Positions 25,631-43,687 of a stretch of 44,233 nucleotides of DNA are shown here, in pieces. How positions within the stretch are numbered: the stretch's first letter is position 1; every line of letters starts with the position of its first letter. Both the position numbers and the translations under genes were made by a program. The notes under the pieces were generated by a model that saw nothing but the letters and a program-made list of their open reading frames with translations, made no database searches and had not been told where the DNA came from. This DNA comes from Candidatus Magasanikbacteria bacterium RIFOXYD2_FULL_41_14 (GTDB lineage: Bacteria; Patescibacteriota; Patescibacteriia; Magasanikbacterales; GWA2-37-8), in the NCBI GenBank assembly GCA_001784475.1, contig MFRE01000022.1, positions 1 through 44,233 of the forward strand. Direction: 5' to 3'.

Positions 25631-25714
25631 GCCGGGGTGACGAAATTGGCAGACGTAACAGCCTTAGAAGCTGTCGGCCGCAAGGCCATGGAGGTTCAAG
25701 TCCTCTCCCCGGCA
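25631..25714 (+). tRNA. tRNA-Leu(TAG)
   Basis: GCCGGGG...CCTTAGAAG...CCCCGGC, long variable arm; loop CTTAGAA. Confidence 0.92.
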
Positions 25715-25715
25715 C

Positions 25716-25851
25716 AAGAAGCGACCCAATAGTTTGGGTCGCGACTGAGGACTTGAACGCCGGAACAATATCCGCTCGCGCGGACGTGAGGCGGTGGTTA
25801 GACAAAATTTTCTCAAAAATTTTAGTCGAAACCAAGTCCTCTCCCCGGCAC
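25716..25851 (+). other. tRNA-3'-end-associated structured element (Leu copy)
   Basis: Downstream of tRNA: hairpin, antisense T-arm gaggacttgaac (25747-25758), GC hairpin, AAAATTTT hairpin, then direct copy caagtcctctccccggcac (25833-25851). Confidence 0.65.
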
Positions 25852-25882
25852 TAAATTATTTTTTTAATTTTATTTTATTCGT

Positions 25883-39536: not shown

Positions 39537-39888
39537 AGTTAACACCTCCCATCTTTTAGTCCCGACAAAGGCGGGACATTTTTTTCTCGCGATCGCGAGA
39601 GAAAATCTTTTAGATTTTTTACAAGACAAGCATTGTTGTAAAAAATTCTTTCGACCTATATATATTATAGAGTGAAATGAAATAAAATGAAATAGTGTAA
39701 AGGAAAGTTATGCACAGGTCTTCGTTTTGACGCGGTTGGAATTACGGCCTGTAAGCAGGTGGTGAGCAAAAAAATTAATTTTTTAAAATAAAAAATTTTA
39801 TAAAAAAATATTTTGATTTGTATCAAAATATTTTTTAGCGTGATAGTTTAGTGAAACGCTTAGCGTCCCCCTAACGACGCTAAGCGTC

Positions 39889-40058
39889 GTGCCCCCGGAG
39901 AGGATCGGCTTTGACTCAAATTTTCTTCCAAAAATTTGGTCTAGCCACCGCCTCCCGATCGCGCGGCGTCAGTTCGGCCGCGCGATATCGGTCCGGCGTT
40001 CGATCCTCTCGGTCGCAACCAAATTAAAACAATCCACATAAGTGGATTGTTTTAATTT
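39889..40058 (-). other. tRNA-3'-end-associated structured element (Arg-TCG copy)
   Basis: minus strand: hairpin, gagaggatcgaacgccgg (antisense T-arm), GC hairpin, AAATTTT hairpin, direct copy gatcctctccgggggcac. Confidence 0.65.
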
Positions 40059-40272: not shown

Positions 40273-40345
40273 TGGGCCGCCAGAGGATCGAACTCTGGAC
40301 CTTATCCTTAAGAGGGATCTGCTCTACCAGCTGAGCTAGCGGCCC
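40273..40345 (-). tRNA. tRNA-Lys(CTT)
   Basis: GGGCCGCTAGCTCAGCTGGTAGAGCAGATCCCTCTTAAGGATAAGGTCCAGAGTTCGATCCTCTGGCGGCCC; loop CTCTTAA. Confidence 0.88.
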
Positions 40346-40399
40346 GTAAGTATTTGTATGTGTGTTAATCTCATCTAACTGAGAGACTTGTGTTTACCA

Positions 40400-40486
40400 T
40401 TTCTCGCCCCGTAGAGAACCAGCGGTTCTTCTACCGGGGAGCTAGCGGCCCGTAAGTATTTGTATTTATGATAATCTCATTTAACC
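40400..40486 (-). other. 5'-half copy of tRNA-Lys plus its upstream sequence, D-loop hairpin insertion
   Basis: gagctagcggcccgtaagtatttgtat at 40333-40359 repeated at 40439-40465; aatctcat[c/t]taac also repeated; hairpin ccccgtagagaaccagcggttcttctaccgggg. Confidence 0.65.
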
Positions 40487-41251
40487 CAGGTCGTTTTTAC
40501 CTCTTTTGATTATAGTGGTCTTTGGCCCTTTCCATCCTTTTACTTTTAATGCAGCTTCGGCCGATTCAGTTTGAGCTTCTTGTTTGCTCGTACCCATTCC
40601 TTCGGCCACTAATTCTTTTTCTAAAAACGCTCCCACAACGAAATTTTTGGCATGATCTGGCCCTTCTTCTTTTAATACCTTATAGGTTGGGGTAATCCCT
40701 AAAATTTCTTGGGCGGATTCTTGAAAGCGACTCTTGGCATCCATGTGTAAATTATTTTCAAAAATGTTTTCAAGTTTTGTTAAAACAAATCGGGCGATAA
40801 ACTGCCGCGAAGCTTCATAACCATGGTCAAGATAAATGGCGCCGTTAAGGGCTTCAAATAAATTCGCCATGATGTAGTCGCGCGCTTTGGTGCCTGCGTC
40901 TTTGGCTTCGCCGTGACTCAAAAATAAATATGGTTCTAAACCAATTTCATAAGCAACCGCCGCTAGAGTATTGGCATTAACAAGCGCGGCGCGCCAATTG
41001 GTGAGTTCGCCCTCGGGATTGCCATATTCATTAAATAGAAATTCAGTCACTACCAATTCTAGCACAGCATCACCCAAGAATTCCAGACGTTCATTGTGCC
41101 CGCAAGGAAAATCCCGGTGTTCATTTAAATATGAACGATGCACAAAGGCCTGGACCAAAAGTTCCGGACGTTTAAATTTTATACCTAAATGCTTCTGTAA
41201 AAGAGCGAATTTGCGTTCTTTGATTTCCGGCAGATTCATTATTTTATTCAT
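40481..41251 (-). CDS. rnc: ribonuclease III
   Basis: HNERLEFLGDAVLELVVTEFLF; C-terminal dsRBD. Confidence 0.95.
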   Translation of the reverse strand: MNKIMNLPEIKERKFALLQKHLGIKFKRPELLVQAFVHRSYLNEHRDFPCGHNERLEFLGDAVLELVVTEFLFNEYGNPEGELTNWRAALVNANTLAAVAYEIGLEPYLFLSHGEAKDAGTKARDYIMANLFEALNGAIYLDHGYEASRQFIARFVLTKLENIFENNLHMDAKSRFQESAQEILGITPTYKVLKEEGPDHAKNFVVGAFLEKELVAEGMGTSKQEAQTESAEAALKVKGWKGPKTTIIKRGKNDLG

Positions 41252-43355: not shown

Positions 43356-43427
43356 GTCCTCGTAGTTTAATGGATAGAATATCTCCCTCCGAAGGAGGTG
43401 ATGCGCGTTCGATTCGCGCCGAGGGCA
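43356..43427 (+). tRNA. tRNA-Arg(CCG)
   Basis: GTCCTCGTAGTTTAATGGATAGAATATCTCCCTCCGAAGGAGGTGATGCGCGTTCGATTCGCGCCGAGGGCA; loop CTCCGAA. Confidence 0.9.
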
Positions 43428-43428
43428 C

Positions 43429-43582
43429 AAAAATATCAGAATTTTCTGATATTTTTATCGGCACGAATCGAACGGGAAAGGGTGAAAACGGGAGTTTTCA
43501 CTCACGGAGGAAAGTCCACGAAAACCCGAAGGTTTTCGTGTGAGGAAAGAATAGACGACGTGAGATTTCGCGCCGAGGGCAC
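43429..43582 (+). other. tRNA-3'-end-associated structured element (Arg-CCG copy, different core)
   Basis: hairpin aaaaatatcagaattttctgatattttt, antisense T-arm cacgaatcgaacg, two strong hairpins, direct copy gatttcgcgccgagggcac (43563-43582). Confidence 0.65.
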
Positions 43583-43687
43583 AAATTGGCATTATTTGTT
43601 TGAGCGGATGATTAGGTTATTAAAATTTGTTATTGACATCCATTTTTTTTACTTCTATAATAGAATATACACTGTATAAATAATAAT

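Follow-up and report, generated by a model that had tools for sequence, protein, structure and literature searches.

Genes for tRNA are classic targets of mobile DNA, and a known integrase typically reads one tRNA. The integrative elements of tRNA genes that employ tyrosine integrases, including IMEX that use the XerCD of the host, enter the T-arm with a tRNA 3′ end of their own, and the original end stays behind as a direct repeat. In IS200/IS605 elements and in the REP/RAYT system, hairpins lie beside a segment that pairs with the target, and the logic is that of a single strand. In the stretch of 44,233 nucleotides analysed here (termed the window; contig MFRE01000022.1, positions 1 to 44,233, of Candidatus Magasanikbacteria bacterium RIFOXYD2_FULL_41_14) the gene for tRNA-Arg(CCG) is followed by a unit of 154 bp that resembles both. 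On balance it seems probable that this is a small non-autonomous mobile unit, complementary to its target, restoring the gene that it enters, sometimes provided with cargo and moved in trans, with its antisense segment fixing the insertion point.

Structure of the unit behind tRNA-Arg(CCG)

Between positions 43356 and 43585 of the window tRNA-Arg(CCG) comes first, followed by a terminator-like hairpin (T′), a T-arm antisense (antisense segment, AS), two hairpins, the motif GTGAGAT and a 19-bp copy of the tRNA 3′ end, all on the + strand. The target gene occupies 43356..43428 (ARAGORN; 59 bits with the tRNA model of Rfam), and the copy that adjoins the inserted unit starts at its position 59 (43413). 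This left copy of the exact direct repeat TTCGCGCCGAGGGCACAAA, from tRNA position 59 to the 3′ end, lies at 43413..43431 and the right copy, which forms the tail, at 43567..43585; the insertion point is placed at 43412|43413, i.e., between A58 and N59 of the tRNA. The spacer hairpin T′ (43429..43456) is followed by the 10-nt AS CGAATCGAAC (43464..43473), which is complementary to tRNA positions 53-62 across the insertion point and can be extended to cggcacgaatcgaacg (43459-43474) with one A.C mismatch to the tRNA. Each of the two core hairpins has a purine motif before it. Conserved motif 1, GGGAAAGGG (43474..43482; alignments A1 and A3), precedes hairpin 1, GTGAAAAC-GGGA-GTTTTCAC, with its C(GGGA)G loop (43482..43501), and conserved motif 2, GGAGGAAAG (43506..43514; alignment A3), precedes hairpin 2, CACGAAAACC-CGAA-GGTTTTCGTG, with a covarying stem (43517..43540). 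The 3′ end of the core (43541..43566) closes with the conserved GTGAGAT directly before the insertion junction.

The predicted fold of the unit is far more stable than that of its shuffles (-56.7 vs -34.9 kcal/mol; z -6.1, reached by 0 of 200 shuffles). Over 65 relatives hairpin 2 covaries, with 134 double changes against 46 in shuffled data and 90.6% of pairs kept against 73.5%. The loops of hairpin 1 are of the GNA or GNNA type in 46 of 63 cases, as compared with 6 of 40 in T′ hairpins, and 12 of the 33 GNNA loops are not GNRA. Since GNA and GNNA loops stabilise DNA hairpins, these loop types hint, short of proof, at a single DNA strand. A pairing between the right end of the core and the segment that precedes motif 2 was rejected, as it did not exceed shuffles (4.73 vs 4.54). 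The covariance models of Rfam 15 gave only tRNA and rRNA at gathering score, nothing credible around the Arg(CCG) unit at E up to 10 and nothing at 25716-25860 at E up to 1; a resemblance between GAGGAAAG and the RNase P core was considered but not upheld, as Rfam has no match to it.

Insertion and displacement of the tRNA end

Empty sites are present in close relatives, in which the sequence following the orthologous tRNA is the one that follows the tail. For the present core they were found at Glu(TTC) in two genomes of another genus (G021 and G022), and for a second core, described below, at Arg(TCG) and Pro(CGG) in the same genus as the window's genome; the ortholog of tRNA-Arg(CCG) in a sister genome is also empty and has the same gene downstream. 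A direct repeat of the tRNA 3′ end, a restored tRNA and an exact empty site, which characterize tRNA-integrating elements, were all found. By these comparisons the units are insertions that restore the tRNA, and their mobility is well supported. At Arg(TCG) the ancestral ctctcCg is found in the tail, and ctctcTg is the present end of the tRNA. Since the tail is ancestral and the tRNA end new, a 3′ end must have arrived with the incoming molecule and displaced the old one, which is the signature of recombination within the T-arm.

A few copies (L097, L099, L122, L132, and L237) show exact duplications of 34 to 62 bp, which in a few of them include the terminator; target-site duplications are clear in five copies only and not in the others. 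These duplications, the 5′-truncated copies L116, L119, and L163 and the microhomology at the left junction of L132 recall a retroelement similar to a short interspersed nuclear element, for which the core would be the RNA 3′ end, the fixed right end the priming site of target-primed reverse transcription and the left end variable, with long target duplications. This explanation is already weakened and we hold it for quite improbable: the RVT_1 reverse transcriptase is absent from element-rich genomes (G066, which is one contig, G070, G059, G014, and G013), is present in other carriers, G000 included, and occurs in about half of the genomes with or without units. Moreover, T′ and the terminator that follows the tail are unrelated in most copies, and the displaced ancestral end at Arg(TCG) requires an incoming gene end.

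The antisense segment follows the target gene

Each of the positions 53-62 of the own tRNA is complemented by the AS in 51-59 of 59 units, and those beyond 63 in 11-34. The agreement of the AS with its own tRNA exceeds that with shuffled tRNAs at positions 59-60 (88 vs 51%, z 11), 57 (95 vs 74%) and 61-63 (82 vs 66%), a control that does not remove relatedness. No wobble bias was seen in the AS mismatches at positions 53-64 over all tRNAs (18 wobble and 20 other transitions).

The same core was also found in genes that do not encode tRNA, and these two copies decide the matter. In G169 a unit lies in the 5′ end of lepA, antisense to the gene, with an exact 37-bp direct repeat of the lepA start, and its AS pairs 14 of 14 nt with lepA (2 G.U) across the insertion point; elsewhere in this locus the AS pairs at most 13 nt, once in 6,688 windows. 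In G326 a unit is located at the 3′ end of rpsI, its AS is complementary to rpsI over 9 nt and the duplicated end is derived from rpsI. The former gene was identified from its translation, the latter from its translated end, and both stay whole despite the unit. Since these copies carry an AS complementary to lepA and rpsI, the AS follows the target, not tRNAs as such; it is a match to the gene entered and not a tRNA relic, and the insertion mode is not tied to tRNAs. This is the larger point beyond the earlier note, which had proposed a family of cores sharing an insertion mode at tRNA ends: one mode for unrelated cores stands, whereas its restriction to tRNAs does not. The note had regarded a core away from tRNAs and without a tRNA copy as speaking against its proposal. 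Literally taken, the lepA and rpsI copies are such cores, yet each holds a copy of its own target, and the idea of insertion is therefore strengthened.

It was also considered that the unit is a cis-acting regulator of tRNA maturation, in which the AS would pair with the T-arm of the nascent tRNA, the tail would compete for the AS and the core would sense something. The fold is indeed strong and conserved, and the AS can pair with the tRNA if the latter is in the transcript and otherwise with the tail. Such a role is nevertheless very unlikely in view of the patchy presence of the units, their exact empty sites, the terminator that precedes the AS and the occurrence of the same core at rpsI and also at lepA, where it runs antisense to the gene.

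Core families sharing one insertion mode

The cores of the window are separated by two covariance models. R1, built from 25 copies of the present core, finds only the Arg(CCG) unit in the window, plus a chance match at E = 3, and R2, the model of the second core, finds 25746-25842 and 39898-40010 and never the first core. These matches belong to the unit behind tRNA-Leu(TAG) (25716..25851, + strand; R2 92.8 bits), where the 19-bp repeat CAAGTCCTCTCCCCGGCAC lies at 25697 and 25833, and to that behind tRNA-Arg(TCG) (39888..40058, - strand; R2 110.4 bits), for which a genome of the same genus has an exact empty site. R2 also matches units at Pro(CGG) and Leu(CAG) of the own genome and at Lys and Val of a same-genus genome. 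The claim of the earlier note that the Arg(CCG) element repeats the architecture of the other two (given there as 25716-25851 and 39889-40058) with a different core is thus borne out, with the parts at the coordinates given above, and by the structure-aware models both of the others form one other family. The note had called the tail a near-copy of the tRNA end; it is a copy, and an exact one, the extra T being part of the core end GTGAGAT.

A third, shorter core is present behind tRNA-Ser(TGA) in the own genome and behind tRNA-Asn in the sister genome. That unrelated cores use one insertion mode at tRNA 3′ ends is supported by the precise empty sites, this third core type and about 78 copies of the present core. 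At least nine tRNA genes of the own genome bear such 3′ units. The third type, GTTTATGCCCCGAAGCGNAGNGNAGGGGTAAATC, was seen behind tRNA-Ser(TGA) and tRNA-Asn in L034 (1300-1500, - strand), L141, and L135, and L135 has it and the present core arranged in tandem on a single tRNA. A mirror case was observed at 40320-40495 of the window, where the 5′ end of tRNA-Lys(CTT) with its promoter region (GCTAGCGGCCCGTAAGTATTTGTAT...) is duplicated and a hairpin core lies between the copies; further mirror units at tRNA 5′ ends (L021 and L031) occur twice in tandem at tRNA-Pro(GGG) and once at tRNA-Gly(TCC).

Distribution, cargo and arrays

The own genome was covered by stretches around tRNAs, the order by 86 genomes and the phylum by a sample of 380 genomes. 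R1 matched units in 26 of the 86 genomes (78 copies examined) and in 20 of the 380; exact pattern matches in named genomes were in Candidatus Magasanikbacteria and other Patescibacteria. Sixty of the 78 copies begin 7-94 nt 3′ of a same-strand tRNA, with about 18 isotypes represented, and the distant copies likewise lie behind tRNAs (Met, Ile, Ser, Gln, Pro, Arg, and Leu). A match of the short pattern in Fluviicola (L233) was rejected as chance, having neither tRNA nor core. Collections of phages, plasmids and viruses gave no match to the units, and a full-text literature search, mostly without subscription papers and so weak evidence of novelty, found no description of them. In G059 six copies at six different tRNAs share nearly one core, which argues for retargeting, and Lys units of several genomes cluster in the core tree; both retargeting and same-site transfer occur, with the tree being weak. 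As it is poorly resolved (73 columns), the tree was used for obvious clusters only.

The majority of units have no gene, and some carry cargo. Behind tRNA-Asn of G013 there are three core and tail units with a GIY-YIG open reading frame (ORF) and another ORF between them, and then a TIR-like ORF (weak match). Elsewhere a methylase (MTase) with a MutH-like nuclease, a BRO-N protein, or a small antitoxin/toxin-like gene pair, which has no Pfam match and is relBE-like by eye only, were found 5′ of units. Arrays are present in L116 and L118. In L119 (4200-10600), behind tRNA-Ser, two nearly identical units enclose about 6 kb encoding a serine recombinase, a REP_ORF2-G2P protein, an APH-like kinase and a peptidase; since this piece lies between two nearly identical units, some of the cargo may have been brought in by other islands located at the same tRNA. 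The end motif of L119, CGTTCCAACATCGTCCCA, recurs in L133 and, as AACATCGTC, in contig C6 of the own genome. In L118 (3700-5700, - strand), behind tRNA-Lys, AAAGTTTGCCASCTGTCCCGA...GTTCACAA closes each of two small membrane-protein-like ORFs, and this looks like a further family of cassettes within the array. In L121 (3700-3800, - strand) the unit comes after a longer 3′ fragment of tRNA-Val, which gives the impression that this tRNA was also entered, upstream of the unit, by a phage-like island.

Candidate enzymes

With its 154 bp the Arg(CCG) unit is too short for an integrase gene, and elsewhere only the one 6-kb composite locus has a serine recombinase. Reverse transcriptase, Y1 transposase and IS110 were rejected as movers, being absent from element-rich genomes, several of which are near-complete. 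The Y1 transposase is missing from G066, G070, G059, G169, G010, G013, G021, G022, and G024 and present in a few carriers, including G000; the IS110 DEDD transposase was found in 0 of 16 element-carrying genomes. These results bear on an RNA-guided insertion by a bridge RNA-, TnpB- or CRISPR-associated transposon (CAST)-like protein, for which the AS with the core would be the non-coding RNA. A short guide adjoins a structured scaffold, the pairing spans the insertion point as in the bridge RNA (PMC11208160), and G.U pairs occur at lepA. With IS110 DEDD in none of the 16 carriers and Y1 absent from most, while TnpB and CAST proteins were not searched for, we regard this possibility as unlikely.

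Tyrosine recombinases are present in every genome tested, the Xer-like form of 320-340 aa is nearly universal and in some element-rich genomes it is the only tyrosine recombinase; an Xer-type recombinase is thereby the sole candidate of common occurrence. Tyrosine recombinases of other kinds were rejected, since their presence does not follow that of the units. The own genome encodes in addition an XerA/IntI-like recombinase; the best of three recombinases tested scored 249.5 bits against the TIGR02249 cut-off of 265. One may ask if the units are integron-like cassettes, with the unit as attC-like folded single-stranded site and the tRNA T-loop as attI-like site, into which an Xer- or IntI-type recombinase inserts circular cassettes with or without genes. 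The native gene end is displaced by the right-hand site as in cassette insertion, the array L116 behind tRNA-Asn consists of repeated core and tail units with ORFs between, and the hairpin-1 loops are like stable DNA loops. However, the paired arm has no conserved box and its sequence varies with the target, lepA and rpsI included, the IntI-like protein is under the cut-off and such proteins do not track units, and in Glu units the AS fits the tRNA better than the tail. Integron-like cassettes are thus possible but rather doubtful.

Proposed mechanism

For the favoured trans-moved, gene-restoring unit we infer that the AS acts as a guide at the DNA level, that the folded single strand is the active form and that the enzyme comes in trans, most likely being the Xer-type tyrosine recombinase of the host. 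One exact point of the target gene, usually in the tRNA T-loop, would be entered. A single strand of the unit would fold, and the AS (about 10 nt, on the 5′ side of the structured core) would set the site by pairing with the target on either side of the insertion point. The recombinase would then join the right end of the unit to target position 59 and the 5′ part of the target to the gene end that the unit itself carries. In this way the gene would retain a complete 3′ end, unit-borne or duplicated, and the original one, moved beyond the unit, would become the tail.

Several points weigh against this mechanism. No enzyme co-occurs with the units, and the Xer-type recombinase is candidate by elimination rather than by proof, since it is also found in element-free genomes. 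The duplications of 34 to 62 bp are not explained by a simple circle model and remain a weak point. That the junction lies at 58|59 is deduced from the sequence, and there is a second class in which the tails start closer to position 54. The AS may only build a hairpin in cis, as it always matches the left copy on the same strand too. Copies with an apparently fresh duplication (L097, L099, L122, and L132) show weaker AS matches, so the AS may be tuned after insertion. Finally, the T-loop is nearly universal and hence the AS tells tRNAs apart by few positions only.

Comparison with known systems

One core reaches about 18 tRNA isotypes plus ribosomal and translation-factor genes, and what varies from target to target is a short segment complementary to it. 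If the AS directs insertion, genomes of about 1 Mb would hold a natural insertion system that is about 100 bases long and can be retargeted, and it would explain how streamlined bacteria such as this uncultured, parasitic one gain genes beside tRNAs without breaking them. We suggest tentatively, with less than even confidence, that the units make up a class of mobile non-coding DNA spread over the phylum. A segment of about 10 nt that is complementary to the target around the insertion point would steer the insertion of a structured single strand by a host recombinase, with several unrelated scaffolds, gene-end restoration and occasional cargo. With the same reserve, targets would here be chosen by base pairing, and none of the known guided transposases would be involved.

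Dada-type transposons of fish tRNA genes (PMC8869645) and tRNA-targeting retrotransposons also choose tRNA genes as safe sites, but they are eukaryotic, have their own transposase or reverse transcriptase and no target antisense. In the IS110/IS1111 bridge RNA systems (PMC11208160; PMC11208158) a non-coding part pairs with the target to the left and to the right of the insertion point as it does here, whereas the present carriers lack an IS110 recombinase, the AS is one contiguous segment of 10 nt and the gene end is duplicated. From IS200/IS605 and REP/RAYT the units differ in the absence of Y1 from element-rich genomes, the long duplications and the AS of about 10 nt. With integron cassettes and attC sites (IntI) they share a folded single strand as the likely site and a native end displaced rightward, and the arrays of L116 and L118 may be a further likeness to arrays of units with optional genes; here, however, the fixed site is a tRNA or other gene, the gene end is restored, no IntI is above cut-off, and the R box RYYYAAC/GTTRRRY is not found, the arm tracking the target so that the lepA and rpsI arms are unrelated. 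The integrative elements of tRNA genes share with them insertion in the T-arm, the incoming 3′ end and the original end left as a direct repeat, and against these elements the present units stand apart by a length of about 110-170 bp with no integrase gene, by about 18 isotypes per core and by the antisense of the target that each of them carries.
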